Both the position numbers and the translations under genes were made by a program. Below the pieces are notes generated by a model that did no database searches, was not told the origin of the DNA, and worked only from the letters and a program-made list of their open reading frames with translations. A DNA stretch of 64,000 bases. Origin: Saccoglossus kowalevskii (lineage: Eukaryota > Hemichordata > Enteropneusta > Harrimaniidae). Positions 23,197-54,508 of the stretch are shown here, one piece after another. Location of the stretch: the NCBI RefSeq assembly GCF_000003605.2, contig NW_003120922.1:653409-717408 (forward strand). Direction: 5' to 3'. Position 1 is the first letter of the stretch. Every line of letters begins with the position of its first letter.

Positions 23197-23277
23197 ATGA
23201 AGATCGTAACTACACTTGCCTTGCTGTTGGTGATGATAGCATCATATCAAAGTAGTGTATTAGCTGACGATGAACAG
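23197..23277 (+). CDS. Exon 1: signal peptide of the WKAGLF precursor
   Basis: This exon has 27 codons beginning MKIVTTLALLLVMIA. A lysine at position 2 precedes a hydrophobic core, and SSVLA-DDEQ offers a typical signal-peptidase site after Ala23, so the product should enter the secretory pathway. The ATG is chosen because it opens this signal sequence about 180 bases below a TATA-based start. The exon ends CAG|GTAGGT, a good donor in phase 0, matching the phase-0 start of the repeat exon at 46081. Without splicing the frame stops almost at once (GTAGGTTGA), which supports exon status. The two acidic residues before the donor match the acidic spacer style of exon 2. Confidence 0.8.
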
Positions 23278-25996
23278 GTAGGTTGAATTTTGAGATTCCG
23301 TAATCACATAACCTGTTCTAGTTGACACATGTGGAATCCTGTGATGGCGATTGCATCTTTCCCTCATGAGATTCACATGCAACTCCGTCATTTTGTATCA
23401 TCTCAAGTATTCCCGATGATTTCCGCGCTCATCGAGAAAGAACTTCCCTACCTTTTACAGCAACAATCCCTAGGCCCTATTTCGGTATTAACGGCTTCCG
23501 TCCGTTTTAATCGCGACAATAAGCTCGCTCTGCAGTGTGTCAATGTGTCAGCGCCTATGCGGTTTATCCTTTTTTTTTCAATTATCAATATGCCAAGGTT
23601 AATTTTTCATCAGTTTGCTTGACTGATAATGATCTTCCAAAGCCGGATTAGAGCGTTTTAATTGAAAGGAATGCGATAAATGGCGCGTTAGTAATATCTA
23701 CCCGACCTCCCTGAGAAGGTGATCGTTATCGGTGCATACCACCGTATGGTTTTACGTCTTCTTCATTCATTTTTATTCACTTTACTGTCACCTGGCGCTT
23801 TAGAAAAATACGTTAATAGTTATACGGGAAGGACTATACTGTGAAGAACGCATTTTTGAATAATATATTATTGTTTATTAAAATAAGTAATTTCATGAAC
23901 CTTCACGTGACGAGGTGATCGTTACCGCAAAGTTTGATAACATTGATTCATTTCAATAAATAGCGGTCGATGTGTTTCCCCATGGGATGCGCACCCCTCA
24001 CCTTCTCACGCACACAGCATATTTATAGTGTTCTTGGTCGATGTGTTTATATTTGCTAAATATTAACGTAATTTGCTCGAGTATGAAGTAAAACATCAAT
24101 ACTCAAAATAGATATGGTGTGTATTTGCTATAATTGCGTTTGATAAAACTACATTCAACGTTACATAGTTCATGATGCTCAATAGTATTTAGCCTGCTTT
24201 CTATGTAGAGTAAACAACCTGAAACAAGTCATTGCAATCAACTCAAAAAGGCGAATAGGTTGGTTTTTGTTTGCCTGAACACGCAAATTATAAATGTAAA
24301 AAAAAAAACGATTTTTTTCGTAATCATCTGTGTTGTTTTGATTGAAATCTTCATGTGTCTAGGCAATCAAATTATATAAATATTTACCGAATTTATATAT
24401 ACATATATTACATAAAAAAATACTTCATGTTCTGTTTCAAAGAGAATAAATTCAACGCGACGACCGTGAAGTGTTTGAGATAAATGTTCAACAAAACGTG
24501 TTTCTGTTTTGACTCACAAGGTCGCAATGATGAAAAAAGCACTGTACAATGAAATGCCAGAGCATCAGTCCTAGAAATGTGACTCTTCTTCTGAATACCC
24601 AGTGAATTATTTTCAATACACATTGGTAGCTAGAACGCATGCGCTCGCGTTTAAATTGTTACTTGGCTGTGTGCTTTAATCAAGATTTAAGCTTTCAAAC
24701 TTGACTGAGCAGACCACAATTAACTTGTTTCTGAGTATTTGTAAAAATAAATGCTACAACCACCTCTTCTCCATTATTTCTTCCTGACAACCAGCGTCAG
24801 TGGTAAGGATTTAAGAATCTCGAAAAACTAGGAATTAACAGTTATTGTACCCAATGATGTCAATGTAGTAATCGCGTTGAAAGTGAAAGAAAAACCGCAA
24901 CGACAGCGAGTTTCACTGTGCAGTTTATCATTGCTAATTCGGAACCCGATATTAACGATACTTGTTTCCAGCAGTTTTATATTATCAGATTCAGGTGATT
25001 TTTTTTTTCAATTGCGTAATACTACATTTAATATGATGAGCTCTAATGGCACACTTCGCTTTATAAGTAGCGTAGTTATGAAAACATTCAGTGATGCATT
25101 GAAACGTATGATATAAAAAAAAAAGGTTTCCAGTTTGTTTCATCTTCCCGTCGAAACGAGTGTGTTCTCAAACTAGTTGATAACTTCGTAAGAAAACCGC
25201 GATCTCGGCATTTTGCTTCTTTTCAAGCTTGAAACGCCAAAGAAACATTTTCTTAAGTATTAAACGTGTTCGTTTTGATTGTATATATTAGTATATTGGA
25301 CCTCGTTGCCTCAAGTGCCTTTTTTTATTTTTTTTCTGCAATTTCTGTTTCCTCTTCATTTCGCGTGAATTTATTTACGTTATTCAAACTGTAACGTACT
25401 GACAGGAGGCTATCCGATTGAAGTAAATTAATTACAATCTTAAGCTCTTCGGATATATGAAATGGTTGATTAGTATCGCCTTGAACGTTAGCGTTTACAA
25501 ATTAAATCGAAAAAAAAAAGATTGCCGCAATCCAAAAGAACACTACATGGTTTTGAATATCTCGAAATTATGATTAGTTTAACCGTATATAGGAGTGTGA
25601 AAGAAAGAAAGATTAGTTTAATTGAAAGTATAATTTACGTTTTTGTAAACCGATGTGGGCAAACGCCATCGAAATTTGTTGAGTCGACTTTTCGCTTCAA
25701 CAATTAATAGAAGCCGACCAACGTCCCGGTCTAATAGCTCAAGATACGATCGATTGATTTTTAATAGTAATCTAAAACCGATATATTGGACTTCCGATAA
25801 AAAAAAAACTCGTTTGTAGTAAAGGTGAAAAGATGAAATAGCTATTCATCAAGCAAGTGAAAATGACAAGGATATCTTCTCCGGTCATATAATCACTGAT
25901 GTTGAATGGGATTTAACGTCAAACTGACATTCACATCAACTGGGCCATTTAAGAGCAGCACTTAAGAATTCACTTGTGCAATTCAGATAAATTCAC

Positions 25997-26055
25997 CAAA
26001 CAACTGCTCCTTTTCCAACATTAATTGAAAAGGAACAGCTGAACCCAATTGTTTG
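25997..26055. repeat. Imperfect hairpin inside intron 1
   Basis: CTGCTCCTTTTC pairs with GAAAAGGAACAG (11 of 12) across an 11-base loop. CAAACAA pairs with TTGTTTG outside it, leaving a 10-base bulge on the 3' side. The size is near that of a small RNA precursor, but the bulge and short outer stem argue against a standard microRNA. Confidence 0.35.
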
Positions 26056-29000
26056 ATGACTGTAATGGACGAACAGGTAGGGGTTGCGGCATGTCTGAAC
26101 ATCGACAACAACATCAAATATCAATATAATCTGAACCATCATGTCACTGTCCGATATTTGCATATTTCTATTATAATTAATATATGTATACCAGATAAAA
26201 AAGCAGTTTATTGTTTATAAATAGAATTATAAATAACGTATGTTATATCTCTCTATTTAAATAACGAATTTTGAATGATTTTTTAATATCAAATACATTG
26301 ATTGCAAAGAAAATCAAACAACTGATATTCATCATCAATCACTAACATTGGCAAAGTGGCAAGAAACCCCGGGATACTTTGTGATTTTACTTCCAGTGGA
26401 TGTATTAATGAAATAACTCATTACAGGCATTTTTTGAGTAATTCATCGCACCTTTAGTTGAAGACTAATTAGTCTGATTAACAATATTAACAATATTATG
26501 ATCGAGGATAATCCCACAAAACAGACATAATAATATCTACGGTGCATTGTTAGAGAGGGTAGCCGAAAAGAAGATTTGTGGTCAAGCCGACGATAGCATT
26601 GAAATAACGCGAGATACCGCGAGACCGGAAAATTAGCGTGAGAATGTGCTATACAAATAAATCCAGCTTAATAAGTACGCTGTTGCCGAGAGCGCACCAT
26701 GCGTACATTTAATTACGGAACGACTACGCATGCCAAAGCGTAATGTAGCAGCCAGATCGAAGGTGATTCTAACAAGTGCCAGTGGCGTAACAATGTCAGT
26801 CGTCTTTGTGTAGTTTTGTTTAAACTTCAGGAAATTTATGTATGCCTCAGTTGTCAAGTGTAATTAAGTTATATCCGAGTTATCCAAACAATCTTTTCAT
26901 ATAAATACAATCAAATAACGCAGTTAGCACCAACTTTGTCAACAAGTGATCTACAGATGTTTGTAGCCAACGTACCAACATCGATAAATATACAGAAATA
27001 CTACTAAACTTAGCCTGATTGTCAGATTAAATACTTAAACTGTTTCTTGCCTTTATCAAACACACGTCAAAGTAACGAGCGCTACTTGCACGCGTTGACA
27101 ATGTAGGTCGCGGTCGTATTAGACTGCGTGATTGCGAGTCCGTACAGACAGTGACAGTTTAATAGGGGATCCCATTGGATTCATGTGAATACGTTATAAT
27201 CGGTTGTCCATGTCCATCCATGCGTGCATGTAATTGTGACATCTCAACGGATCTTCACTTCCTTGAAATGTCGTTTCAGATTGTTTCAAAACGTGTATAC
27301 ATAAATCTGTGCCGCTATCAGTTAAATAAAATATACACAACACTAACAAAAATTAAACTTCATGTCTGAACACCTCAGTGTAGTTACAACTCAGTGTAGT
27401 TACTTTTGGGCTCTTGGCTCTATTACAAAAATATAATCGCTCCGTACAGACCAGCATGTCAGACTGTCCTATTTCGGTAACGTTGGTGTCGATCCACCGA
27501 TTATGATGCCAACTTGCTACACAGACTGGTCGTTAGTTAGCTTCATCCATTCGTTCACAACGTGGCATGCACCTGCCGCACTGCGCCCTATCGTGCCAGT
27601 TTCTATCCGCGTCACGAAATCTACAGCGAGACACACAAATGTCCATCCTGAATCAGTTCGATACTTTCATCGCGCATATACCTAAACAAATACAACACTT
27701 CTCATTCCATTATCGCTAAAAAGTCTCCGACCCAGTGACTTATTAGTCATGGCAGTCCATTTACAGTTCTGAATTTTCTAACGGGACATGACGTTTTTTT
27801 TTTATTGAATCAGTCGCCTCTGTCAGTACTATTCAGAAAAAAAGATTCGCGAGCAGCTTTAGGAATAACTAGTAGTATAGTGAGTAGGTACGAAATCTAA
27901 TCTGACGAGTAGATTAAAATAGATAATATTCTATCAAGCATCGTTAATCTGGCTAAAACGTTGGCGCTAATCAAATTTATGTTGACTAATAGGGTAATGT
28001 GACTGATGCGCTGAATATACGCAACTAAAAATGTTATGCCCCACAGGTGCTTATGCAGTCTGCTTTTGGCAAACCATTTTAATGACGATCTTCAGCAAAA
28101 TTGAAAATTGGATACGTACTTTCATTGCCGATGTCTAGCTATTACCACCATTGTTGAACGATTTTTTTTTGGGGGGGATACTAATTATCTTTTTAAAGAA
28201 AACGGGCCAATGCAGACGATTGGAGGGTAACCTTTACTGCAGTCAGGTTTGCTCTTATCTTGCCGCCAAATTATTCGAAAATCATATAATTGTAAGACTA
28301 CAATTTACCTTAAATTACCCTGGATTAAAATTGTCACATTCACGTGGATCATAACTAAGGTAATCAGATGAAAGATTACCTTGAACCTTGACCTTCTGGT
28401 CGTGTTTATTTACTTGATTTATTCAAACTCGACGTTACATATTAGACAAACATTATTAAATGTGTTGAATGGCGACAGTCAACAGTTATACCAATCTGTA
28501 CCATCGCAGATCGAGTTAGTAAAATCAACGTTGACAATTCTCAAACAGTACGCATCGCTTATCCGAACTGGCAATATTAAACTCTTGTGTGTTGTCAGTA
28601 GCAACACAGTTCGATAAGTGGACATCAGTCGCGTACTTGTCATTGATTAAATTATTGTTTTTACAAAGAAGATTTTGAAGAAGAAAAAAAAAACACGTTT
28701 CGTTTCTACAAAACTAATGTATAATTTCTATTATAAATCCGCGAAAATGCACGTCACGGCTCTTTATCCATCTTTTCTGCTGTCGTAGATACACACCAAC
28801 GGCGTTGTTAATAATGAATGGGGGAAGACAAAAGAATTCGTGAAAAGCAATCCGGATATTGATTTGCAAAAGCGTCGATAATACTCAGTAATTATGGTAA
28901 AATTTCATTCCAACCGAAACCATACTTTAGTTAAAAGGCTACTCGAATTAAACGATTTACTCTTTTACGGTGTGGAATATAACCATGCTTCCTTTCAATC

Positions 29001-31864
29001 GTGTACACCCATCACCTAGGCGTAATAATATAAACTTAGGTTATATAATATGTACTTCGTTACATATCTACTATGACACGTTATGAAAGTTTTTTTTCTT
29101 CTTCAATGTCACGTGTGTTTAAATATGAAGCAACTTGAATTATAAATTCAAAACATTTTGTTAGTGTAGCAACCAACAGGTACAATATTTAAACACAGCA
29201 TATTCCACTACATTTGATACGAATAATGTAAAAACAAACTTACTTCCGTGAATGCTTTCGGCTGAAAACTTAAAATGCAACACGAATGAAATACTAAAAC
29301 AGTTTTACTGTTAAATTGTCTCTATTGATATACCGCTTGGCAATTCAGAACACGCACGACGAATCGACAGTGTCTGCCGTCTCGATGGTGTTTCTGTATT
29401 ATGTATTGCGTTATATTGCCCCACACCGTCTATTGAACTTGTATTTGATGCCTTCAGTTGACAATTACGCGGGTGTTAGCAAACAGCAGCGATAGCGTAA
29501 TAGTGTAGTTGGTGGTTCTACGATGTTTTGACTGTTAGGGCAGTGTAGAAAATCAGTTACAATCTTCGCATTGACTCGGATCCACGCATAACTAGATGCC
29601 TTGAAACTATCGAGATGACATACAGTGTATTTGTACTCATTGTAACTTGACAACCATATACGCTCGGTATCACTGTAATGGCATCGTAGCTTCAACCCGC
29701 TGTTTACATAATTGATTATTCACAATTCGTCCTCCCATTACGTTGAAGATAGCATACAAACTTGATGCGAAAAACACATACAAATCTGTTTCCATCGTAT
29801 AAAATATGTTCAATAACGTGGATATGTACTCTAGTAATATCCTTCAAACGTAAAATGTTATTTTTTTCTACAAACATTTTTTTCAGTGTGGTGTTTATTC
29901 GTTTACATGATGCTGTTAATGCCGACAGAATAATAAAAGAAAAGTTGACAGGATAATCTCCAGAATTTAACACCATTTATTTCTTTCGTTCATTTGCATT
30001 CACCGCCGTGGCAGATAACATTAACCAAACACTTACATATATACTCGAGAAAAGAATTTACTTTTCAGATTCTGACAATTCAAGTATGATGAATCAATTA
30101 CGTCATTGTGCGCATGTCTCGTTACGTCACGTGTTATTTAAATAAATCGACGAGGCTGTTTTTCAAGATACTGCCGTACCAAGCAGGACGTTTGTTAGTT
30201 TGGTAAAGGGGACCTCGCAGTTCCACTGATTACATCGCAGACTATTTATTAGCATTCAGAAATGTTTCTTGCACAATTAGCACAACGTGGTGAGCACATG
30301 CATAATCCCAGCATGCATTCGTGCTTACAGATGTCACCGCTGGCTGGATTTTACCATATTTTCGCCGATTGGCAAAATTAACAGGCAAAGGAAGAGTCAA
30401 GCGTCCCGAGTTATCCACAATGACATATCATTAAGCGGCCGGTGTATTACGGAAATGAGATAATAAGTCAGTCCATGTAAGAAACAACAATCAACATAAA
30501 TGGACGCTGAGTTCTCGTTGACAGCGAGAGAGCTACGATAACAGTTTTTCTCATTTAAGAGTGTTATTTTCTCATATGTCATTGCGTTCACTGTTTCAAA
30601 TACCATGTTTTGATAGCTCATTACAATAGGCGCGATGACAGGGAAGAGTGAAACACTGTTTGAGAAACAAAACAACCCTCGTGATTTCTTTCAACGGCGG
30701 GAATCATTGCGTTTTTCTTTCTGTCAATTGCAGCTCTCATGAATGTGCCCTTCTATTCAACACCAATAGCTGACTGTAGCAATTTGACTGATGTTAGAGA
30801 AGAAGATAGATTGTAAATAAATAAATACAATTTAAATCGCATAGGCGAATTCGTTTATATATAGTTCCCACCAAAAATCGGTTCATACCCCGAAAATATT
30901 TCAACGCTATACTACTAAAAACAATACGAACGAGATATTTTTTTAAATAGACTGGAATATATTATTTTTAAAACTGTCACAAATCACGAATACGGTACAA
31001 TTGAGAAAATTACATTATTACCACTACAAGTGCTACAATTTCAGATACATATCTATCTTATCCCGCAATTACCTTCCGCTAAAATTCAATAAAATAACGA
31101 TAGCAATTATTTCGACTGTTATGTACAATATGTTTAATAGTTGTTGCCGAACCCATAATAGTATATCTGTTGGTGATTAATAGCTTACGTCACTAACATT
31201 TGTATATTTCGAAGTTGCGGTAATATCCAACAACACATTTTGAGTTACCCAAATGGCGAATAACACACGCTGCGTAGCGACTGGGACCTTGCGTAGCGCA
31301 TGGGGCGCTTTAAATTGGTTGAAACATCACCGTGTATTATCACTCGAGGAAAAAAAAAACATCACATTATACCGTGACAAAAATGACATTCCGCGAAAAT
31401 GACGTCAGTACAACTACTTATTTTTTCGCCTACTCATTTTTGGCGCGGTTGAGGTGCAGTTGTTGGAATGTATTATGTTTTAGTCTGAATTCTTTCCACA
31501 ACTCAGCTCTAAAGGTAAATAAGAATTTATACAAGAATTCCGCCATTAATTGAACTTGACAAATGGGGACACGTGTGTCTTTGAAATGAAACCCGCTAAA
31601 ATACCTCCTTTTTATGTGATACGCGCGAGACTCAGTGTAATATGTAAATATAACGAAATGACCGTCTCTATGGTCAGTCCAATTTCAACAAATGTGCGCA
31701 TGCATGGCAAAGTGGCAAGGCACCTACAATAAAATCCACCCGGGGTGTTTAGAATTTCTTTTCAATGTCCGCAATTCGTATATTTGGCGATCATAAGAGA
31801 TAAGAGATATATATTGTAGTTAGCAGTGCGATTTCTGAGCTTGATTTCATACTAAGCCGAACGC

Positions 31865-31878
31865 GTTGCCATGGTTAC
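31865..31878 (-). promoter_or_regulatory. Canonical RFX X-box in intron 1
   Basis: GTTGCCATGGTTAC reads GTAACCATGGCAAC on the minus strand, a full match to GTHNYY-AT-RRNAAC. With the near-match in the gene's promoter it may mark RFX regulation of the host gene. No local transcription start is evident. Confidence 0.4.
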
Positions 31879-34800
31879 TTAGTCCTCAATGCAATATGCG
31901 TTAAAGCGAATTTTCGTGTCTGCTGGCCCGTAGCTTTATCGTTCCACGCAACACCGACAGCGCTGCAAAACTCCCGTTAAAGTTATATAGGGTTTAATTT
32001 ACGTCATTAGGACAATCACAGCGAGGGTAAATTCATTCTTCACCCGCCTAAAGCTAAGACTATACCAAAGCATAATCTTTTCATTACCAGAAGATTTTTT
32101 ATTATCATTCCGAAAGATTATTCTCCCAAATCGGCTACTTTTGGATATTATTTAAATGAATTTACGAATTTGATATTGCCTTCCTCAATTTGTCTGAACA
32201 GTTCCTTTTTTATGTTCATTGATGTACTCGAACATCATTAACCAATTGATATTAATTAGTCAACGCATCTACACTTGAACGCACGCACGTTTTTTTTTTT
32301 AAATGTACGTGCAGACATGTTTATGGTTCGTAACAAATATGCCAACAGATGCAGGGGGGTGTCGAGATGCAGTTATTAGACATTACAATGTGGTTACCAG
32401 GACAACACCAATATTTAAATCATTCTACATGGGTTCTTATTCAATTTGTATAAACATAAAATTGGGCTTAGTTTCCCTTGTTGTTACCAACATGTGAAAT
32501 CGACGCCGCTACAATCGCGAGACATAATAATAGTAACATTACAAGCCGGTAAGTTAGAAAAAAAACTACACACATTGAAAAGTGGCTGCGGCGGTAGTAA
32601 TGCTCCTTTTTTATTTACGTAAAACACTCTGCAGGAAATTACTCGAATTTTGTTCTCGTCAATTGAATTCAACGCAGTGGGCTGTCTTTCCACACTACTT
32701 ATATCCAATATAGTTCTCAAAACGCTCAATGGGTGTGGGAACACCACCAGTGATAAGTACATAACCTACATATATTTCATTATAACTGTAGTGTCGTGTA
32801 TCGTCACGGGCGCTCCTTTCTTGCATTTGGACCTTCTAAGAATACTAATCTAACACGTGTATAATTTCAGAGTTTCTTTAGTCACGTGACCAAACTGTTT
32901 CAAGTAAATTTGAGGCACGATTCATAGCGTAGGCTGTATAAACAAGGCTGGCATGCGGAGATTCTGTGACAGAATATTCAGTGAATATAATATGTACATG
33001 TACCAGAAGCATCAATGGTAGTTTCTTTTTGTATGAAAACGAGCTCATTCTATTCAACTGGAGAGCCACACGACTGTTTCTTGTCCCCCCCTAAAGTGTT
33101 CCATTCTGCACCTCCGTCGCGTCTAATGTTCCGCTAACCTATTTAAAAATGCCTATTGGAAGTGTAGATGAGATGGAGTATAAAACACTCCTATTGGCAA
33201 ACCAAGTATCGTGGCTCGCTCACTCTCAACGCGAATACAGCGGCCGTTTGCGAATAAGCTCGATGGTGAATATAAATACAAATTATTTAAATACGTCATT
33301 ACGTATGTAGAAACTGTGGAAATTTTAACACGTTCTTTAATACATAAAGATATTAGAAACTTATAAGATATAAATGCGAACCTGGTGCTGTCGGCCATTT
33401 TGTTTTTTGTTTCAAAATATTTAAACATCAAATTATGAAGTAAAGAGTACAATTATGTTGTGTGGTGTCTTGGAATAATTTCACATGTCTGGGTTCAACG
33501 CATTAAAGTAACTGCTCAGAGACGTCGAAACATTTAGGAATTATAATTATCTTCTTAGTCATTCTACAAGAGTTTTGATGTTTGTTCTGCAGCGGCGCAA
33601 ATATGGCGGAGAACATCAAAGTCTATCTTGTAACACAGCTGTATATTTCTATGTCATCGTTTGTATGCAACTACGAAATCATTTCTACGGTATCGGGGCT
33701 ACTTTCTTGGTAATATAACCAACTGATGATATTTGGCCAGTAGGAGGATGGGGAGGAGGAGTAGAAAGAAGGAGATGCGGAGGCAAGTATTAACTGGATA
33801 ATACAAAAGGATGATTTCGATTCGTGGGAGTATGGCGCCTACAGTGCGAGGTAACAAAAGGGTGCGTGATTTTTAATTGAAACGCTATAAATTAAAAAAA
33901 AAAATGTGTCATCGTGCGTAACTTCTTTATAGATATTTATAGATGTATTTCTTCGGTTAAAAAACACCCTCTATGCAACGTGACATATCACACAAACAGA
34001 TAAGTTTTTTTTTGATTTCTAAGTAATGTACACAATTATTGAAATATCATTCATGAGCAGAAATTGAACGATGATACGTGGAAAGCCACGCATGTAACGC
34101 AAAACTAAACCGAACTATATTTTTTTCTTTAAATGGTGAAAAGGTAAAAAACGCAATCAGATAATGCAAACATCCGAAGTTTTATTAAAACCGATATTAC
34201 GTTTTTGAAAACTGTTTTACTGTAATTTAGCTAATTTCAATTCATTCACCAATGTGTGCCTCTCATTCGAAGAAGCGTACATAATTCTCAGCCCTTTAAC
34301 AATTTATTGTAATAAAATAAATCGTTATAAGATGGAGTTTGCAAAAATCCGGTGAGAATATACTATTCAAGAACACGTTTGATTATTTTTATATTAAGCG
34401 GTAAGATGAAAACAAAAGTTTTAATTTTAGGATTTTTTATTCATGTCAGTACTTAACTAGTTACCATATTGAAAATAGGGTTTACTATATAACCAAATTA
34501 TTATTATTACATTATACATTTTTGAATATGAATATTAAAAAGGTGTGTATATTTCAATTGAAACAGTTCATGTAGAAATTAAAGTTACATAGACCCATTA
34601 TCTACGTCCGAGATGTAAGTGAATTTATTCATGCTACGACGGTTATACAAGCCCAAAATTAAATAAACTCACATAGCAATTTTCTATGCGATTTGAAACA
34701 TAATTCCAATCTTAGTTACGGCGTACATATGTATGTACGAATATAACACAACTACGACATCGTGGGTGTAGTATATCGTGGGGTAAACCTCAAATCACAT

Positions 34801-41559: not shown

Positions 41560-41925
41560 AGTATTTTCATGCGAGGTCAATTTTGGATCACCAGGTCATT
41601 CCTAAACGCGTAATTAGGACTGAGACGAGAATCAATTTTGGGTGCCAGAAATCAACCAAAGACGCTTATTTGGGTATAATTTGCGCTGTCAAGACAAAGT
41701 TCAGGTTAATAAAATAAGATTGACGACGTTTTCCCAGGAGAAAAAAGTGAATTATTTGTTGAAAAATGGATACGCACAAATTGTGACGTCGACTCAACGC
41801 ATACAATGCAGCGTCATGGAAATTGTCTGCAGTACACGTACACGCATCTTTCGATGACGTAGGTTATTTTTCTAGCCAGCTCAGGACGCCGCGCCGTACA
41901 CACATTGTACTAATAGAAGGTAAGA
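41560..41925 (+). promoter_or_regulatory. CpG-rich patch with CRE-like motifs and a possible first-exon donor
   Basis: TGACGTCGA near 41783, ATGACGTAGG near 41854 and several other CpGs cluster here. A strong donor, GAAG|GTAAGAG, follows at about 41920. This could be an unspliced first exon of a plus-strand or noncoding transcript, or an intronic enhancer. I found no matching downstream coding exon. Confidence 0.2.
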
Positions 41926-43977
41926 GCTCTTGCCCTTTTCCACAAATTTTAATATATTCTTAACAATTGCTTTACCTATAAAACTCTGCACACCATGCTA
42001 TGATCATTCAGTGTTTTGAACTAAACGACTCACCGCTTAGCAAAGTCAATTTTCAGGATTTATTGGCACACAATGTCATGAATCAGGGAATCTAATGGCC
42101 AAAAATAAATCGCCAAATATTGCATCGTACATAAATGAGGACAGCGATTTATTAGGCCTATGTCCTGTGAACTCGTATGATTTGTGTGATGTGCACATGC
42201 ACGGTGCGACTAGTAACAATTACCTAACGTAGCGGTCCTTCACGCCACAGTTGTCACGATGCATTTCAATAAAATAGCATCTAAAACCAAAATAAGGCCG
42301 ACATGTGTAAATACTTGTACATTAGTCTGGTCTATGCAGCCAGCAATAATGAAATTGTAAGAATGGCATTGGCAAAATGATGACCTCGGATGTAGCCATG
42401 TCTAGGGCATGGATATGATTTATAGTCGTCCACTAATGTAATGTTATAGTGTCTATGAAGTATGTGATCTTCATTAATCATTTGTGACCACGCCATTGAT
42501 TATATAGGCTACCACACACTGTATAATATTGAGCAGAAAGCCATGCAACAAACTGCATTTCATTCACCACATTGGCATAGCTGGCTGTACTCATTCTTAC
42601 TTTTTCATGATCATTGTTTGGCCCACTACAATTTTCTTGTGATTTAGGCGGATTTTTGTCACATGCAATAAGCAGCAAGAGCAGCAATGTGTACATCAGA
42701 GTGCTTTTATCATGCTTGTGTTGTTGCTATTGTAGATAAATGGCCACAGCACGAATGTACATAACTGTCATTTATTAGGCAGTAACTGATAGGGGCCTAT
42801 TCCTTGTGCTGATGTCTACATACACATACACATCAGTGAAAGTTTTGCTGTCGCCAGCTGCCATTTTTGAAATGATGCCATCGATCAACAGTTCATGCCA
42901 CTCATCTCAACCTTAAACAATGACATGTGTTGTCATTTGTTATAAAGGCCAAATTTTATTTTTATGGAAATGAGTTCCCTTTTTCTAAAACGAACAAAAG
43001 TTGATATTAATATCATCATGTAAGAAAACAATTGTTTAAAATGATTGTATTTGATGTAGACTGAACATGTTGGGGAAAAAATAAATCTAAAATAATAAAA
43101 TCCCTGCCTAACTACCCAATATTTTTTACCCTAATACTGGAAACACCAAATTTGTTTTTCATTGGCCTCATAATGGTTTGAGATCTTTTCAACATGATCG
43201 ACATAAATAATGAGGGATGAACTGGTATTCTGTACAAACAGGTCCATGCATTTACATTCAGTTTTTCTGGTTTGATGTTGACTCATTTACAGCCCTGTCA
43301 TTGGTGATACCAGGATTTTACTCCTTATAGCATGTGTCTTATGCAAACCAACAATGCTGTCTTTGCACATGGTCAATTCACTTGGGTTATATGTCAGATG
43401 GCACATTGTCATTGCCATGCGTTAAATTCATTACTTTTACGAGTTATATCAGTCTGATGGGATTGATATCATCAATGATATTCCTATGAAGTACAATTAC
43501 ATTTGATATAGTCTCTTTGCACTCACTTTATTTCCTATTCATTCTAAATGGACAGTTGCATGAACATACAATACCCTAAAAGTAAGGGGGTATATTTGTA
43601 CGACACCCTGTAATTTTGCATGATATGGGTCTATAATACTGTCTTGTACAATGTTGTAAACAGTTAACTACTGGTTTTGTACAGTTTATTGTTGCTGCAT
43701 ATATACAGACAACAAGATATAATATGACTACTACCAAATTGGTTGTGATACCTATCATTTTGGTCTTCCGTCAACACTTGTGTGCTTTTGCACCATGAGT
43801 CGCTTCATGCACATCATACCAGATTTAATCATGACACTCTGTTGACAACACTAATTTACCTCATTATAATGTTAATGTGCATAACCTGTGTTAATTTTCA
43901 ATGAGAGGATGCTTGAATGCACGGCAGTGCTTTCAGCTTCCTCTCGCCAGTTATTTACAATGTGCCTCAAGATTTAA

Positions 43978-44095
43978 TTATGGAAGTCCAACCATTTCCA
44001 AAGCATTATCTATTTCAACAATGTTCTTCCTATTGAAAATTCCTCTACTCAACACCTTACTCAAATCATTCATTACCTTTATATAATCCTCACAA
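43978..44095 (-). CDS. Nested gene: C-terminal coding piece, function unknown
   Basis: Thirty-eight codons run from the gap edge to a TAA stop. The product starts CEDYIKVMNDLSKVLSRG, continues with an IFNRKN segment and ends DNALEMVGLP. The composition is protein-like: alternating hydrophobic and charged residues that would form amphipathic helices, and no low complexity. It differs from the random frames around it and is shadowed by no other real gene. It is open into the assembly gap, so the upstream junction is unseen. I do not recognise the family. It lies in the intron of the peptide-precursor gene on the opposite strand, within the CpG-poor block. Confidence 0.55.
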
Positions 44096-44622
44096 NNNNN
44101 NNNNNNNNNNNNNNNNNNNNNNNNNNNNNNNNNNNNNNNNNNNNNNNNNNNNNNNNNNNNNNNNNNNNNNNNNNNNNNNNNNNNNNNNNNNNNNNNNNNN
44201 NNNNNNNNNNNNNNNNNNNNNNNNNNNNNNNNNNNNNNNNNNNNNNNNNNNNNNNNNNNNNNNNNNNNNNNNNNNNNNNNNNNNNNNNNNNNNNNNNNNN
44301 NNNNNNNNNNNNNNNNNNNNNNNNNNNNNNNNNNNNNNNNNNNNNNNNNNNNNNNNNNNNNNNNNNNNNNNNNNNNNNNNNNNNNNNNNNNNNNNNNNNN
44401 NNNNNNNNNNNNNNNNNNNNNNNNNNNNNNNNNNNNNNNNNNNNNNNNNNNNNNNNNNNNNNNNNNNNNNNNNNNNNNNNNNNNNNNNNNNNNNNNNNNN
44501 NNNNNNNNNNNNNNNNNNNNNNNNNNNNNNNNNNNNNNNNNNNNNNNNNNNNNNNNNNNNNNNNNNNNNNNNNNNNNNNNNNNNNNNNNNNNNNNNNNNN
44601 NNNNNNNNNNNNNNNNNNNNNN
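44096..44622. other. Assembly gap (527 N)
   Basis: A run of N hides the middle of the nested gene: the end of one exon, probably an intron, and the start of the last coding exon. Open frames drawn across it are artefacts. Confidence 0.99.
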
Positions 44623-44697
44623 ATTCTTTCCGATCAAGTACTTTAACATCACCCTCTTGATTCAAATGACATAACTGGAGACTTAAGACATCACCTA
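44623..44697 (-). CDS. Nested gene: internal coding exon, function unknown
   Basis: The frame reads VGDVLSLQLCHLNQEGDVKV and then LDRKE at the gap edge, which is convincingly protein-like. The acceptor is taken as AAG|TAGG at 44698, which joins in phase 1 to the exon at 44782-44836. A neighbouring TATAG|GAAG acceptor at 44701 has a better consensus but would put a stop in frame with that exon, so it fits only if the upstream exon is different. The gap truncates the exon. No family recognised. Confidence 0.5.
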
Positions 44698-44781
44698 CTT
44701 CCTATAACACACAACACCATATTCACATAGTTGTTCATACATGTATACATTATCACAGCAAAATCAATTCTATAAATTTAC

Positions 44782-44836
44782 CAATTGTCTCAAGCAAATC
44801 ATTTGCCCATATTAAGTATAGCTTTTTGTAAGCCAT
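44782..44836 (-). CDS. Nested gene: probable first coding exon
   Basis: An ATG at 44836-44834 opens MAYKKLYLIWANDLLETI and ends ATTG|GTAAAT, a good donor in phase 1. The ATG directly follows ATTAG, a possible acceptor, so the 5' UTR may be on a separate exon near 45.4 kb. Joined to the next exon the protein would begin MAYKKLYLIWANDLLETIVG, giving a continuous hydrophobic and acidic pattern. The assignment rests on frame continuity and splice signals only. The first residues show no signal peptide, so the product is likely intracellular. Confidence 0.4.
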
Positions 44837-45339
44837 CTAATACTTGTGGCTTGTGTTTCAATTACATAACGTTAGTCCAAATATGTCAGCTATTATTTGA
44901 ACACTCAGGAAAAACAGAATCCCATTATCAAGGTCACATCTATATTGCGCTGGTCATGCTAACTCTGGATCAATAAACAATTAAAACATACTGCATTGTT
45001 AGACTCTTCATGCCAAGGGGGATACACTCTTTAATTAATTTCCCCGTAGGCACACGTACTAGCCTTGAATTAAACCAAACTTACATGTAGACTACTTATT
45101 CGCAATTATAGTATATCAATACATATCAACATCGGCCAAAATACACCTCGGGCAATGAATGAGGCTATAAACCTAAGGCACAAACAACTATGCGTAAATA
45201 TTGAGACGAATCCAGATACAATTAGCAATGGGTTAAATATTGTTTAATTCTAAGAAAACGAATTCTGAAATGATATGAAAAGATACGATAGATATGAAAA
45301 TGTACATTTCAGATCAACGCAAACGACGCCATTAAACCG

Positions 45340-45450
45340 AATTCTCATAGCACTCGTTCGTTCGCCTTACAGCGTCAACAAGTTCGCGGCGTCTGTGTGA
45401 GGTGATGTGCGTACAAAGTTGTTCGACAACCGTTTTAGTTATTCCAGAGA
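45340..45450 (-). promoter_or_regulatory. Presumed 5' end of the nested gene
   Basis: CpG density rises sharply here (CGTTCG, TTCGCGGCGTC and others). On the minus strand, a TTGTTGACGCT|GTAAGG donor at 45370 could end a noncoding first exon. It would splice to the coding exon about 530 bases downstream. No TATA box is seen, as expected for a broadly expressed gene. Confidence 0.35.
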
Positions 45451-46080
45451 ATAGATTATGATAGTGTAAAACCTGTTTATATATGGGAAAAACACAAATG
45501 TCTCAACATAAACAGAATTAAGATATATGAATTTTCGTTTATGCTCAGTGTATCTAAAATTCCACCGCGTTTGTTACGTGTATGTTCTCTTTTACTATGT
45601 GCGCTTCCAAAACGCTTCGTTGCAGTTTTGAGTTACGGCATTTGAGGGATTAGTTATATCCATAAAACAGAAGTTATAATGGTTTAATATAAAAGCAATA
45701 AAACATTGGTCGGCTAGGTATACCGCGAGAGTTTCCTTTTACTGTTATGTCTGTGTCGGACTTCAATACACAATCCCGTAGTTTTTCCATACACTGGCAA
45801 TGATTTGGTGCTTAACTAACTAACTTTTTAGTTCGTAGAATAACACCCAGTTCAGTTTAAGTATTATATTGATATGTTTAAAACAAAATCGCAGATTGAA
45901 TTCCCGAAATATATACTGATTACATGCAAGTCAGTATAACGAATTTCCCCCATTAACATTCGATTATTTTCTGGCGGTTCACAGCCAGAAACATAGGACA
46001 TGTTTTGTTTTTTATTATTTCCACGTCCACGCTGCTATTATAGATGCAATAATGCTCTGCGTATATATTCAATTTTCCAG

Positions 46081-46719
46081 GTTGATGATACAGACGACAA
46101 AAGAAGTTGGAAAGCAGGGTTAATTAAAAAAGATGATACGGAGTTAGATAAAAAGTGGAAAGCAGGACTTTTTAAGAAAGACGAAGAAGACGCAGCGGAC
46201 GATGAAAAACGCTGGAAAGCGGGACTTTTTAAAAAAGACGATGAGAAAAGGTGGAAAGCTGGTTTGTTTAAAAAAGATGTCTACGACGATGAGGAGGAAA
46301 AGCGCTGGAAGGCAGGCCTTTTCAAGAAGGATGACAGTAAACGTTGGAAAGCGGGTTTGTTTAAGAAAGACGCTGAACTAGACGCAGAAAAACGCTGGAA
46401 GGCAGGCCTCTTCAAAAAAGACGAAGACGACGCCGAAGAATCGAAGCGCTGGAAGGCGGGTTTGTTTAAGAAGGACGCAGAGGATGAGAAACGATGGAAG
46501 GCCGGCTTATTCAAAAAAGACGCAGAACAAGACAAAAGATGGAAGGCAGGACTTTTCAAGAAAGATGACGATCTTGATGAAAAGAAATCGTGGAAAGGAG
46601 GCATTTACAAAAGGGACGCTAAACGATGGAAAACTGGAATTCTTATTAAGAGGAATTCACCGGAAACGGAATATGACGTTGATAATAAAATCTTGGAAGA
46701 AATTGAAAAAGACTACGAA
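46081..46719 (+). CDS. Exon 2: twelve-copy WKAGLF peptide array of the precursor
   Basis: This exon has 213 codons (residues 28-240). Twelve peptides lie between dibasic sites, typically KR before and KK after. The order is SWKAGLI, nine WKAGLF, SWKGGIY and WKTGILI. Spacers are short (3-9 residues) and almost entirely Asp/Glu/Ala, such as DEEDAADDE, DDE and DAELDAE. Prohormone convertases would cut at KR/KK and carboxypeptidase would trim the lysines, releasing free-acid hexapeptides; no glycine amidation donor follows any copy. Acidic spacers offsetting basic peptides are common in neuropeptide and antimicrobial precursors. The exon begins after a TTTTCCAG acceptor in phase 0 and ends GAA|GTAAGT in phase 0. 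The open frame running on past 46719 and the antisense frames here are shadows. It is much richer in GC than its flanks. Family not recognised. Confidence 0.88.
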
Positions 46720-49700
46720 GTAAGTGTACACAACTTGCCAATACATTGCATCTATTTTTAATCGTTCCGGGCTTTTGGGCGTTGAGTCCTACATGAACAA
46801 TAAAAAATACGGAGACCACTAATAACAATTTGCTAAATGATTAAGTTCATGAAATAAAACATTCACACCGATGAAAACTTAAAATATAATTAGATTTGTT
46901 TTTCAGCGAGGTGAACTGCCTTAATGAATATCTCAATATGTTTACTAGTGATAAGAATCGTTTTATTAGTCTTAAACCAAGCTATTAATATATTATGTGA
47001 TAATGCCTATTTTGACAAGGTTAGGTTTGGTTAGTTTTGGTTTTACACTGCTTAATTAAACGGTCCTGACCTTACAAATTTAAACATTTGATGTCTAAAA
47101 TCTTGTACAAGTACGTGAAATTGTTAACTGCACATACAAGCGAGCTTCGTGGACGAAAATCTTTTAAATCGATACAGTTTGAAGTGTCCCTTAATAGAAA
47201 TGACACTACACTAATCCGGTGTTATTGCGATGCTGTTTGGTCGTGTCAAGTACTATACCTGATATCGGGTATTATGAATCGTTGAGATATAATACAACAT
47301 TCGTATAAGTTGAGTCAACGCATTAATCACAGGCACAGCACCCAAGAGATTGAAAATGACTTTGTTAATAATTTCAGCTCGTTTCGTGTTTAGCCCCGAG
47401 GTAGGAAAATTGTAATCGGCAATCAAAAACAATAAATTGTATTGAACAAAAAAACTATCAACAAGTTCAGCGTAATGACTGAACAGAGTTTTCTTAAGTA
47501 ACATACAATGTTTCAATTATTAAAAATTATCTTGAAATTGCGCCCCGGTGTATAATTCAACTGAAAGCAATCTAGCAAAAATCCATGTACAATCACATGG
47601 GGCTGGCATTAAATGCTATCAATCAGATTCAATGAAACTTTAGATTTGACCATTTAGGTTATACAATAGCGAAAGTTGATATTGTGCTCCAAAATTGAAT
47701 AATATTAAACTATAACGCTATTGCACGTTTTGCTTTACGAAAAGAATACATTACAATAAACGATTTTGTTGATTAAAAGTAGCTACTTTGATTCCAGCCA
47801 TGTGGCATACGGTGTGCTCAAAAATACATACAATTATTCCCTAATTAACAATTGCTAGAAATATACATCGTACTGTTCCACTCTCATGAGACGGGATACT
47901 GTCGCACATCGTCCTATTCGTTAAGCGCACCCCACGACACTTGTACCGCGCGTGGAATAAGTTGTTTGTATTTGCTTAAAAAAATTGAAACGCGCTCTGC
48001 ACGACGACTGTTGCGTTTCAGTTTGTTAACAATAGTAGCATGAATGCAGCCAATGCGTACTTAAAGAGATCAGTGTTTTCTATGAATGATGTTCGCGATG
48101 GCTCAACGCATTGAGGCATGGCTGACTGTATTCTATAAATTCTAAATCGAAAAGCGTACGACAGTCAACGATTTTGAAGGAATTTGTTCAGCCTTCATCA
48201 CTTACATATTTTGTACATCTGGATTGTACATTATACCGCCAAAAGCAGCTGACTAACATTTTGTATCAGTTCGCGCATAATGATAAGCTCATTTACATAT
48301 AAATATAACATTCGTTGACCATTGTAAATCAATTAAACAATGGATGTCGTTATATTGGACTGACTACGTTAATATTCTGTGTCGTTACTACACCCTCATG
48401 GGAGATGAACTCAGAGATAAACCGGAACGAGTTCAGTTTATAAGAAAATAAAATCACCCCAAATATATTTGAATTCTGGTAAAACAGCTCATACCACAAT
48501 TTTATAACGCGAACCTGCCAAATATTACGCGACAAAACGTGTTCGTGCTCATATAGTGGGAATGTCTACTCATTCACAAAAGTAAAACATTGCTGTCAAA
48601 AGCAACATCGCAGCCATATCCATCTCGGTCTGTGACGATGGCGTGTGATTACATCTAATTCTCCAATAACCTTTAGTGAAAAATTACTAAACGCTTTAGT
48701 ACACATGTTTAACTTCAGAAAACAACGAATATTTACAGAAAGCAGTCATTACAGTTATGAACTGTCAATTGTTTGCACAATGTCCAATGCTACATTTTGA
48801 ATTTGTGTATTTCGACATTTTGTCAACAATTTTGCTCCGATTTCTTGCCATACAGTCACCCGCTTTGGTCTCTCAGGAGATGGCTCTTGGAGATAATTGA
48901 ATCAAAGTCATGTATGACATTCTACGTGGCGTTGCTGTCACCCAACTCCTTTCAATTACAATGGCATATTTTACTAAAAGATTCCGACGAAAAAAAGTTG
49001 CTCAACGTTTTTCATTGCGCGGTAATCGTACGGGTTTTGTGGGTTGAGTAGTATTAGTATGGATCGCACGTTTTCTACGACGCATTCCATCTGATGTGCC
49101 AGCCTTGACTACCAAGCAAGTCTCTTTTATCTCTATTCATTTTACCTTACATTAGTTTTGAATTAGAATTTAATCAATATCGTCATTGAGTCGCTAAACG
49201 CCATGAACGAGCCGGCAAAGCGAACTTCGTGTAATGTGGAATATAGGTCGGTTCAATGATGTGTCTCGTTAAAAAGCGAGAATCAAAGCTGCGGTTCATG
49301 CGAAGCAGTGCGAGTCTAATCGTATAGTACTGCAACGCACTATAATCCCCAAAACTAAATTGTACGTTTGTATTATGCATACGTTATTAAGTGATTATCT
49401 TCGTATAAAATATTATAACCAAGTAAGTTCGTATCTTATGTGTCCATCCAATGAACCCCGGCACTTGAATCTCTCTTTATTCACGTATACGAAATGGAAA
49501 TTGCATGCTTATGATAATTATGAAAATTTATGAGAGCAACTGAGAGTTCGCATTAATTTTAAACAAACGGAATTTTCTGTATATTTACGGGGAAAAAATA
49601 GAAACAAAGACCACTTGCAAAAACGCCTGCCACAGGTGGCCACATATGATAATATTTTTTGCATGCGACGTCAACGCACCTATATACTGCAGTACCTTCC

Positions 49701-52700
49701 GAGTTTGTACAGTAGTAACTATCATTTAAAAATACTAATTTAAACAGTAGATCGGAACAGTAAATAAATACCGTCCCCAGGGTTTGATGATTTAAACGTA
49801 TCCTACTACCTCCGATTAAACCGTCTATTCGAGAGAGCTCGTTTAATTTACCCCGAAGCGTAAACGTGGCAAGAGACATTTTCGCTGGTGGAAAATTGTT
49901 GTCGCTAAACTAAATTGGTCCTCGGAGAGTTGGCGTTTATAGTAATTTGTTATACGCTAGGCATTGAAAGCACGATGGTCAATGCCATTAATGGTCTACT
50001 TTCGTAGGACGAGCTCCTCAGACAAATGCCGATAATTTGTTTATACAAAACGAGCTATCAGAGGAGGTTATCATTATTCAGATTCGTTATCGTTCATGTC
50101 GTTGCTGTAACACTCCTGAAGATAAATTAAACTGAGTTGAGAAGAACGGCAAGCACATGCAGCATCATGAACATATATCCCATAATATTCCACATTATAT
50201 CCCACATGCGTTTGCAAAATGTCCGATATTTTCTTGGTGGCCGCTCAGAACTTGTTTAATGTATGTATATTAAGCTATATGATAAATGTAATTGTGTTTA
50301 AAAAAAATCATCAAAAACACGAATGTTCATGCATCATATATTTTTTCTCATCATATCAGGTGAAAAAAAGTATAATGACAAAACACGTCTATCTGCTTTG
50401 ATTGAGCTGTCAGCCTGGTGTTTATCGTGGGTGAACACAATTTTAATTCTCGTTTAAACAACAAGTTTAATATAAATTTAATCATTGTAACGTAGACGGG
50501 TTGTTCTAATACATCAAACTTGAAGACCCACAAAACACGTATTGTTATGAATTAAGACCATAAAAACCATATTTTAGAAAACTTTTAGCTATTCAAATTC
50601 AACCGAACTAGGAATGGTGTCTGCAATTAAATCAATACTTGTCTTTATTGAAATCATAAACAGATTAATACTCTTTATTTATTAATTAAGATCAATATCC
50701 ATAATCCTTTTTCATTTATATTGATTTAAGATTTGAAGCCAGTGTATTTAAAAACCGTACCAGCGCTGTATTCATGTTGCGTTTCATAGATATTCCCTCA
50801 GGGTCGGGGTAATTATCGTCCGAGTGCGTTTAGCCCCTTCAGTCTGCACACTGAGACAAATCGATGTAATGCGCTAATCTTACAGATGGAGCAGCTGTTT
50901 TTTCAGTAACGTAGACGGAGGTCATTTTTTTGATCTTATAGAACATATTAATAGTCGTCTTATTTAGAAAATATGAAATGCGTATTGTGAGTATGAAAGG
51001 GATTAAAATTGTTTATAACTATATTGCCTACACCTGTTATTACATTCATTTCGAAGGAATATGTAATAGCGGTAACCGATCAGTTATATGACAGTTCTGT
51101 AAGGTGTTTACAAAATGTTGACGATGGTACAATGTGGTGATTTGAACTTTAGGTAAAACTGAAAAAAAAGACACGTAAAAACAATCTGCTAATGGAACTA
51201 TTAAGGTGAAGGTATTTTCCACTTACATAAAGTATTAACTCTTTACGACATTGCGGTATAAAAAGCGATAACTGTTGATAGCTCGTTTAGTTTATACACG
51301 GCGCCCCCATTGTTGTTGATTGTGGGATGATCGATGACCCTGTTCTGGGTTCAAAACCATGTAAATTTTTTGCCATCTTCTGTGTCAGTTTGTTTTAATC
51401 AAATGTTGAAACAAGATTTGCGTGATTTTGATAAAAACTAAACTTATCTACGCTTTGCCCAGCTCAAACTCACAATTGAATTAACAATAACCCCCTACCC
51501 AAAGGTCTACACTTCATCTCAAACAACTTACCCCAAACAGATCATTTCAACAACTGACGTGAATGAAATACACAACCACGTAGGGCGTTTCAGGGAAAAC
51601 TATTTTACAAGATCCATGTTTGGTTGTATTAACGCCCTGATTGCCACTGATTTGCAGATACGTTATATTGAGTGGTATTTAAGGCTTGAAAAACGATTCA
51701 CATTCATTAATAAATAACACTACACTGAGAAGGTCAACTAGGGTTAAATGGAAAACTCATTAAACACTCCTAATCGTGTGTGTGGGAATTGTTTACCAGC
51801 ACGTGCCTCATGGTTTTAGCATTGTCCATTTCCATGCACATATACGATCTCTATGTTGAAGACAACTATGTTGCCCGATCCGAAAATTAAAATAGAACTC
51901 ACAAACATTTCGATAGGTGGTGATAAATTACGTCATTGTATTTAAATCTATAGATCAGCTGATTACCAGCAATACAATTGATTACGACAGAGGAGTGTAC
52001 CTCGTTAAGTTTCATGTTCGAGTGGGGAGAGAACAATTAAGGCTTATTGATCGAGTCCATCTGTCATGACGTCACACTTGATTTATCGCGGAGCTACATA
52101 TAAAAATAGCATTTTAATACCAAATATGGATTGTTAGGTTCATTTCATCTTCTCTCATATTGTCCTAGGTAGGTCTTTCGTGACATATCGTCTGCAGACT
52201 TTTTATGGATTCTCTATTTGAAATAAACAAAATAGACACCATTATCGATTTGAATCTACTTGTTTATTTCCTAATTGAACGCACGGATTTGATGAAGCAT
52301 TTATGTTAATCTCATATATTTCTATCTTGAGATCCGTTCGTCGCTGAAAGGGTTTTCAGAATTGCCCGTGTTATATCATCAATATAATTGATAGACGTGT
52401 CTACTGTCCATCATATGTCCATCAACATTGTGCAGTCTTACTATCAAGTTACATGACACTTACTACGCAGCATAGTGACACTCACGCAATGTTTCTGGCA
52501 CAGTGGATTCAGTACAACAGAATCTTACATTAGCTTAATTGAGGAAAAGTCAATATTTTGTATACAGTATAACCATCTGACATTTTGAGTATTTTCCATG
52601 CTAATTGTTTTTGTAGTTGCCTCGAACTGATTTTAGTGACAATTTAACCCAAGCTAAACGTATATAATCTGGTATCAGATATTATCATAAATTACGTGTG

Positions 52701-53679
52701 TAATTATACCTACCATTAGTAGCATATACCTATGTTTTCCATAATTGTTGACATATAATTCATGGGTATATTTAAAGTAAAACCTAATAACCGATTGCCC
52801 AAATCAGGAGATTTCTTAATTGAAAGTTACACACAGGTGGCGGGAAGTACGTCCATGAGTAGCCCCGATTAATGTAGTAAAATAGATGTAAAACTTAAGA
52901 ATTATTATTCCTAAAATAAAAGGATAAATGAATATATATTGACAATTTGCATATTAAAGGTCAAGTACAAAATTCAAAAAATAAAATTAAAATTAGTGTA
53001 CTTCAACTCTGTTCCACATTTATCAAATATATAACAGGCCTGATGGTTAATTTAGTCATGATTATAAGTTCCCATTGCAACATGTGAAACTGTTCCATTT
53101 GTTTGCGGTTCCCTAGAAGAGAGCTCTATCGAGTCATTAAATTGATTTTTCTCAGTGTTTTTTATTCTATTTCAAACGACTTTCTCGGCAGTTTCGGTAA
53201 TGAGGAGTTATTTTATCTGCCGGTATTCCGCTTAATTAATGTGCATGTCTCTTTTTGAAGTTTGTATGTACGCGTGTCTTTGCGTTGTTGACCTCAATAC
53301 TTGACAGAAGTGAAGCTTTAGTACCGACAAATGTTGGTCGTAGAACAAGCGTGTGGTTTCAATTTGACAGTACAATATACGTCTGTTATTTAATATCCGT
53401 GATTCAATGTCTTCATTCCTTTATATTTCTAAGTTTGTTTATTTGTTAACACGCTGCGCTAGAATATACACTAAGGCATTGAAAACACAAATCATTTTTT
53501 TTTATTTATATATTTCAATTAAAAATACAAATTTAATTGAATATTTGGAAAATAGTTAAATTTTAATGAGTTGAATTAGCTCTGTGCATTACCGAAAAAA
53601 CCCGAGTAGGCTAGTAATGGAAGAGTCATATCAGTTTATTGTCTTATAATTACTAATTAATGTAATCTACATTTCACAG
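46720..53679 (+). other. Intron 2 of the WKAGLF gene (6.96 kb)
   Basis: It runs from GTAAGT to an ATTTCACAG acceptor. The content is AT-rich with only short chance frames. No nested gene or clear repeat is supported. Confidence 0.6.
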
Positions 53680-53761
53680 GAACTTAATGAGCTCACATCG
53701 TGTATAGTTGCGTTGAGGGAATTGGGATACGAAGTTATGAAACCAGACATGCAGCAACAAG
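53680..53761 (+). CDS. Exon 3: acidic/helical tail of the WKAGLF precursor
   Basis: Twenty-seven codons plus one base encode ELNELTSCIVALRELGYEVM and then KPDMQQQ. The acceptor is CTACATTTCACAG|GAA in phase 0, matching exon 2. The donor is CAAG|GTACGC in phase 1. The sequence continues the helix-prone, Glu-rich end of exon 2 (ILEEIEKDYE), so residues 229-259 may form one amphipathic helix. Cys248 is the first of three tail cysteines. If the donor is skipped, the frame runs on to a stop near 53872, so an alternative C-terminus is possible. Confidence 0.65.
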
Positions 53762-53966
53762 GTACGCATCGAAGATGCCAGACATGTGTATTTTTTATTG
53801 ATTTGGGAATAAACAGAAATATTGCAAGCTGCATTTTGATCGCATGGCATTCATTATCGAAAAAATACCCATAATATACTGAAATCTTAAATGTTATACT
53901 ATATTCTCCTAAATCTTGGCATTCGTCTGTTTTGATATTTAACAATAATGATGGAATGTTTATACC

Positions 53967-54201
53967 CGCCCTCTAGTGACGTAGTCATTCGATGACGTAA
54001 ATCAGTGACGTAAAGCCTGTTCACAATGTCTATATTAATTTGATCTGTAGTCATCCGTCAATAAGGATTACTTTTTGAGATATTTTATTATATTTTAGAT
54101 GATAAACGACTACACAACCAAACCAGTTTGATTTGAACGACACTGATTTCAAAAATATACGTCATTTTGACGTCACAGAAGCGATGTGTCCTTAGAGGGC
54201 G
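53967..54201. mobile_element. Small inverted-repeat (MITE-like) element in intron 3
   Basis: CGCCCTCTA at 53967-53975 is mirrored by TAGAGGGCG at 54193-54201, with GTGAC/GTCC-type partial extension inward and several GACGT(A/C)A motifs near each end. It is about 235 bp with no coding frame and fills about half of intron 3. No clear target duplication is seen because the right flank is a T run. It may be a MITE; the family is not identified. Confidence 0.4.
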
Positions 54202-54263
54202 CGTTTTTTTTTTTTTTTTTTAGGAATGGCGACTAATAGAGTTTATTTTCATGTTTATTACAG

Positions 54264-54307
54264 GATGCTATATCAGCGCAGACTACGCCCTCTATTGTGA
54301 ATCGTAG
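54264..54307 (+). CDS. Exon 4: C-terminal end and stop of the WKAGLF precursor
   Basis: After a strong CATGTTTATTACAG acceptor, the phase-1 join completes a glycine codon. It adds GCYISADYALYCES and a TAG stop. This gives Cys269 and Cys279, so the tail has three cysteines: one disulfide plus a free cysteine, or an intermolecular bond. The exon contains CGCCCTCTATTG, close to the end motif of the nearby intronic element, so some chance of a mis-called exon remains. Phase and signal agreement favour it. Confidence 0.6.
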
Positions 54308-54502: not shown

Positions 54503-54508
54503 ATTAAA
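54503..54508 (+). terminator. Candidate polyadenylation signal
   Basis: ATTAAA, the common variant signal, lies about 195 bases after the TAG stop. No AATAAA is seen in the next few hundred bases. The choice is tentative. Confidence 0.3.

Follow-up and report, generated by a model that had tools for sequence, protein, structure and literature searches.

Multi-copy peptide precursors of bilaterians, among them those of the pedal peptide/orcokinin (PP/OK) type in echinoderms, combine a signal peptide with several peptides set between dibasic sites, a plan which they have in common with the Saccoglossus kowalevskii precursor analysed here. PP/OK peptides are non-amidated, about 14-16 amino acids long and possess a conserved motif, peptides of the somatostatin/allatostatin-C (AST-C) type form rings closed by a disulphide, and the LF peptides of Ciona end in -LF and carry no amide; to our knowledge, a W-K-x-G core does not occur in the latter. 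A partial starfish precursor of the pedal-peptide type contains seven putative peptides set off by dibasic sites as well as a signal peptide (PMC4772807), a WK motif is common to the somatostatins of echinoderms, amphioxus and humans, none of which is amidated (PMC5627052), and CiLF peptides were mapped in the ganglion of Ciona (PMC12441681). Luqins are amidated peptides of the RWamide, RFamide or RYamide kind with cysteines that typically, though with exceptions, stand ten residues apart, and their C-termini were proposed to act in the regulated secretory pathway (PMC5940834). The same source reports that a separate RWamide luqin precursor is already present in S. kowalevskii. Peptides mapped in this species comprise VIamide, luqin, WFMRFamide, NNFamide, vasotocin, orexin, GnRH, CRH, TRH, calcitonin and CCK, and for juveniles the expression of PC2 and GPC was described, PAM being the third marker mentioned (PMC10508912).

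In the present study the window, which is the whole stretch of 64,000 bases that was analysed (35% G+C, 842 N; C1344:653409-717408 in a genome of 572 Mb and 4,830 contigs), was found to hold four exons on the + strand, which, joined in silico, give a coding sequence of 846 nt with a TAG stop and a product of 281 residues. The locus probably encodes a precursor, not described so far, from which S. kowalevskii would obtain a short, non-amidated neuropeptide or peptide hormone. Its parts are:

22984..22990, + strand: TATA-like box TATAAAA, 213 nt 5' of the start codon, with a presumed function as such.
23197..23277, + strand: coding part of exon 1, with the putative signal peptide MKIVTTLALLLVMIASYQSSVLA and the acidic DDEQ; donor CAG/GTAGGT, phase 0.
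46081..46719, + strand: exon 2, with the array and the start of the tail, NSPETEYDVDNKILEEIEKDYE; twelve peptides with their dibasic sites and acidic spacers; enters and exits in phase 0.
53680..53761, + strand: exon 3, ELNELTSCIVALRELGYEVMKPDMQQQ, with one cysteine; exits in phase 1; less certain.
54264..54307, + strand: exon 4, GCYISADYALYCES, then the TAG stop; nine residues lie between its two cysteines.
54503..54508, + strand: possible polyadenylation signal ATTAAA, a motif match only; a second one at 55360.

The intron phases (0, 0 and 1) are mutually consistent, and all three introns show GT-AG borders. Splice sites were scored with simple, rough matrices built from the general splice consensus and ranked among the GTs and AGs of the window, the scored site counted in. 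An equal or higher score was reached by 3, 17 and 30 of 3793 GTs for donors 1, 2 and 3, respectively, the donor of exon 2 being GAA/GTAAGT, and by 28, 88 and 10 of 2968 AGs for the acceptors of exons 2, 3 and 4. Between positions 1 and 46080, 15 candidate first exons run from an ATG to a phase-0 donor, and a signal-peptide-like core was present solely in 23197-23277, where the hydrophobic core of the putative signal peptide reads LALLLVMI (KD 3.45 over 8 residues); the cleavage point is our own reading of the sequence. From the position of the TATA-like box, a short 5'UTR within exon 1 is suggested. Exon 2 is situated inside a stop-to-stop frame of 254 amino acids, whereas no N-free ORF in the rest of the window exceeds 147 amino acids, and given this difference the array as a product of chance is excluded. 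The gene is a real one.

An acidic stretch lies between the signal peptide and the array, in which nine copies of WKAGLF are accompanied by single copies of SWKAGLI, SWKGGIY and WKTGILI (computed [M+H]+ 721.4032, 774.4508, 810.4145 and 830.5134, respectively). Each of these twelve related peptides is flanked on both sides by a pair of basic residues, and the eleven spacers, of 2-9 residues each, consist largely of acidic residues (D or E at 45 of 62). A Gly ahead of the C-terminal dibasic site was found in none of the twelve, and because of this, amidation by the usual route is impossible for all of them. The sequence-only reading had already proposed the four exons with agreeing phases and a 281-residue product, which were reproduced exactly, and what it had said of the splice signals, the putative signal peptide, the twelve peptides with their dibasic sites and acidic spacers and the lack of amidation was borne out by the ranks and counts given above.

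Processing, release from neurons or endocrine cells, the type of receptor and the function of the tail are what we infer for such a precursor. Once the signal peptide is removed, cleavage by prohormone convertases is expected at the KR and KK sites, followed by carboxypeptidase trimming of the basic residues left behind, by which one molecule would yield nine WKAGLF and one each of SWKAGLI, SWKGGIY and WKTGILI. The machinery for such processing exists in this animal, in which PC2 and GPC are expressed (PMC10508912). The acidic spacers offset the basic array. By analogy with other peptide systems, the released peptides would most likely target one rhodopsin-type GPCR, and the amphipathic tail with its cysteines would most likely assist the protein in folding, in dimerising or in being sorted to secretory granules.

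This tail is 63 residues long and holds three cysteines, one in exon 3 and two in exon 4. In a monomer, one of the three would be left unpaired. Exons 3 and 4 appear to be the weaker and less secure part of the gene model, resting on splice signals, and among 31 candidate internal exons above our score cut-offs exon 3 ranks only fourth. Since the frame of exon 2 stays open to 46758, the transcript could be read through the donor and end, without the tail, at the TAA in 46759-46761, and such a read-through, or a continuation into other 3' exons, would place the cysteine tail outside the product, for which we see a limited but real chance. However, the donor of exon 2 is strong (17 of 3793), the phases match across two further introns, the acceptor of exon 4 is strong and the stop lies in frame. 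An amphipathic stretch moreover runs on over the junction of exons 2 and 3, although the same is achieved by 28 of 358 open acceptors, the actual one included. The four-exon model with the tail is thus preferred to a gene ending behind exon 2. Of the earlier claim of a cysteine-bearing tail, the model and its splice signals stood, and the confidence attached to it was slightly high, with an odd cysteine in the tail and splice signals as its sole support.

Relatives of the precursor were sought among proteins, profiles and structures as well as in the genome itself. The protein set comprised 5.8 billion sequences including nr and UniRef entries, and the entry of S. kowalevskii seen there was COX3. 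The first 2 kb of the genome's last contig, C4830 with 17,037 bases, encode ATP6 and then COX3, and 192 amino acids of this COX3 are 100% identical to that entry, the next best match being Glossobalanus with 79%; this settled S. kowalevskii as the source of the window, against molluscs, brachiopods, arthropods and tunicates, which had also been considered. The full 281 amino acids gave 6743 candidates of about 155-492 amino acids, none of them at E<=1, and residues 1-111 gave 118 candidates of about 61-194 amino acids, none of them at E<=10; these length ranges would not catch a gene model that is fused or very short. If the absence from the nr and UniRef entries is complete, then, for a species whose genome is public, it could stem from weak expression or from gene modelling that failed. 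In Pfam, one weak match each was obtained, PF08017 with the whole protein (E = 0.26) and PF18249 with the tail (E = 0.066), both below the curated cut-offs, and there was no match in NCBIfam and none at E<=1 for the full protein in PDB. Searched against PDB on its own, the tail matched ERCC-6 over its residues 14-39 (4cvo, E = 0.0075), which was taken as a chance match of helices, and two further chains (E = 0.4 and 10) were read likewise. Rfam and tRNA scans of the window yielded nothing.

On the DNA level, a degenerate pattern for WKAG[LF][FL], searched exactly and genome-wide, produced at least 12 matches, nine of them in the array and three lone, as against five for a backward-read control. 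None of the three lone matches has dibasic flanks, and no second array was found genome-wide by this exact pattern, which a diverged array would escape. Tblastn over 188 kb around the gene detected no second copy of the tail, the array or the N-terminus, all other matches lying at E >= 0.9. The window contains 189 N-free ORFs of at least 60 amino acids, and 98 of these were compared with Pfam in search of neighbouring genes, which gave 14 weak matches, the best at E = 0.0034 and none convincing. Of the 98 ORFs, 30 lie between 23 and 56 kb, and the scan left out the 39 shortest and 52 others, namely the array's own ORFs and many shorter ones at 23-56 kb; the flanks were covered by a Pfam scan of six chosen ORFs.

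Within open-access texts, a scope that did not extend to supplements or to the majority of subscription papers, WKAGLF occurred in a single paper, an unrelated one dealing with antibody CDR3 repertoires, and related W-K/R-x-G cores beside neuropeptide terms occurred in no paper, a query which papers giving the lone string would escape. WKAG beside neuropeptide terms led to a starfish corazonin-type peptide, HNTFTMGGQNRWKAG-amide, in which the tetrapeptide is there by chance. No matching peptide is contained in the accessible sections of neuropeptide papers on starfish, sea cucumber, brittle star, oyster and nemerteans, brachiopods and phoronids. The comparison closest at hand, with the same animal and the same kind of precursor, is that with the mapped peptides of S. 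kowalevskii, among which the available part of PMC10508912 names no W-K-x-G peptide. It is possible that the sequence was listed earlier, unnamed, in supplementary tables. That the family is unrecognised, as had been stated from the sequence, agrees with these searches, in which the protein set held no relative, Pfam, NCBIfam and PDB nothing credible and the literature no relevant paper.

Set beside the described families, the S. kowalevskii peptides are, with 6-7 amino acids, far from the length of PP/OK peptides, and their W-K-x-G core is unlike the PP/OK motif as it is known to us. Cysteines near the C-terminus of the precursor are shared with the luqin/RYamide type, but 0 of 12 W-peptides has an amidation Gly and none ends in RW, RF or RY; furthermore, nine residues separate the last two cysteines, upstream of which lies another one. 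With somatostatin/AST-C the W-K-x-G peptides share the WK motif and the lack of amidation, which is a lead only, but none of the twelve contains a cysteine with which the ring characteristic of that type could be closed. The -LF ending likewise connects WKAGLF with the Ciona LF peptides, also from a deuterostome nervous system; this comparison was drawn from their description and is a lead only. An RFamide-type amidated C-terminus, as in the NPFF, QRFP, PrRP and kisspeptin families, occurs in 0 of 12 W-peptides. Neither an amidation Gly nor a GXLMamide-like motif nor the echinoderm RIFGPXXamide motif of the bombesin type is present (motifs according to PMC12002301). The kind of precursor is ordinary and its sequence is new, and it is a member of none of the families tested.

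Even so, the W-peptides might be the derived, lineage-specific ligand of a known receptor system, e.g., of the somatostatin, NPFF, QRFP, PrRP or bombesin type, and not belong to an independent one. Receptors of the NPFF, QRFP and PrRP type were reported in S. kowalevskii in 2014 without identified ligands (PMC4062910), putative bombesin-type receptors are mentioned (PMC12002301), and the WK motif and missing amide of somatostatins (PMC5627052) fit as well. However, the resemblance amounts to two to three residues, and the W-peptides have neither an amide signal nor the disulphide of somatostatin nor bombesin-type motifs. Kisspeptin-type precursors, moreover, were found later in S. kowalevskii, as stated in PMC4772807. 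The kisspeptin ligand gap is therefore closed, and other gaps between receptors and ligands may have been closed by later work as well. A paper published in 2020 (PMC7314547) reportedly deals with PrRP/sNPF in echinoderms. Altogether, we regard a derived ligand of a known receptor system as unlikely and prefer an undescribed precursor that stands apart from these families.

Selection on the repeated peptide was estimated with the method of Nei-Gojobori, summed pairwise, by comparison of the copies within this one array. Among nine copies of WKAGLFKKD, 173.0 synonymous differences fall on 162.7 sites (p = 1.06, saturated), as against 20.0 counted non-synonymous differences on 809.3 sites (0.025), which derive solely from multi-step paths between Leu codons; these copies were picked for their alike translation, and low non-synonymous change is thus partly a matter of construction. 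Because of this choice, the fairer figure is given by all twelve units, unselected and taken over six codons from the W, with p = 0.88 for synonymous and 0.11 for non-synonymous sites. Silent sites have thus come close to saturation or reached it, whereas the peptide has been retained, and the repeated peptide is therefore under strong purifying selection. Recent gene conversion among the copies was rejected on account of the divergent silent sites, since conversion would be expected to homogenise these too. The divergence of silent sites around a retained peptide is, in our view, the strongest evidence that the array is translated and that the peptide is of importance.

The same comparison bears on whether the peptides are secreted for purposes outside neural signalling, as epidermal or gut-gland products of an antimicrobial, mucus or pheromone-like nature. 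Gland products are also known to be secreted, multi-copy and processed at dibasic sites, and Trp and Lys are present in each of the twelve W-peptides. On the other hand, 6-7 residues with a single Lys are short for a membrane-active peptide, and a peptide that was kept while silent sites changed freely points to a specific binding partner, which leaves gland products as a rather improbable explanation. A non-functional or chance repeat, or an artefact of simple sequence, can practically be dismissed, as the peptide is conserved at saturated or nearly saturated silent sites, the dibasic sites are intact in 12 of 12 and the signal peptide is in phase.

Much work on the origins of the deuterostome and chordate nervous systems uses S. 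kowalevskii as its model, and with WKAGLF ([M+H]+ m/z 721.4032) a concrete and cheap candidate ligand is at hand for in situ hybridisation, peptidomics and receptor deorphanisation. The precursor suggests that non-amidated peptides can escape catalogues which are guided by amidation signals. More tentatively, it may stand for a new hemichordate, possibly ambulacrarian, family of non-amidated W-K-x-G-[LI]-[FYIL] ligands, in which an orphan GPCR of deuterostomes would find its missing ligand; if this is true, deorphanisation would close one of the gaps that the map of ligands and receptors has at the deuterostome base.

Besides the WKAGLF precursor gene, whose first intron measures 22.8 kb, neither convincing coding sequence nor a transposon ORF was found among the 98 ORFs of the window scanned against Pfam. 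One lone genome match, WKAGFL at L001:1501, a stretch elsewhere in the genome, lies in a frame translating as VGKNLADSWKAGFLESSAKEN, which resembles exon sequence of a small GTPase of the Rheb type; it was therefore regarded as a chance match. At the start of the mitochondrial contig (L022:1-700, G000:C4830) a tandem repeat with a unit of 140-141 bases and five detected starts precedes ATP6.

Upstream of the window by about 22-79 kb, on the same contig C1344, an exon pattern resembling an insulin A-chain (ECC, five residues, CVWEELAEYC) occurs in three intact copies and one degenerate copy from which the CC pair has been lost. An ORF of 77-80 residues (SCYKQECVYP...) is also repeated; its copies share 86-95% identity, and every one of them precedes an insulin-like exon by some 4-8 kb.

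Insulin-like exons and repeated ORFs (L coordinates local to each stretch)
L011:1543-1740, +, intact insulin A-chain-like exon
L013:4646-4831, +, intact insulin A-chain-like exon
L015:4549-4740, -, intact insulin A-chain-like exon
C1344 ~631760, degenerate copy of this exon
L010:7372-7602, +, SCYKQECVYP ORF
L013:717-956, +, SCYKQECVYP ORF
L016:2367-2597, -, SCYKQECVYP ORF

Pfam scanning returned no insulin match for the three intact exons and only a sub-threshold match for the one ORF copy submitted. Veenstra (2021; PMC8286064) describes octinsulins that are amplified in hemichordates, and the insulin-like exons of C1344 possibly represent these.
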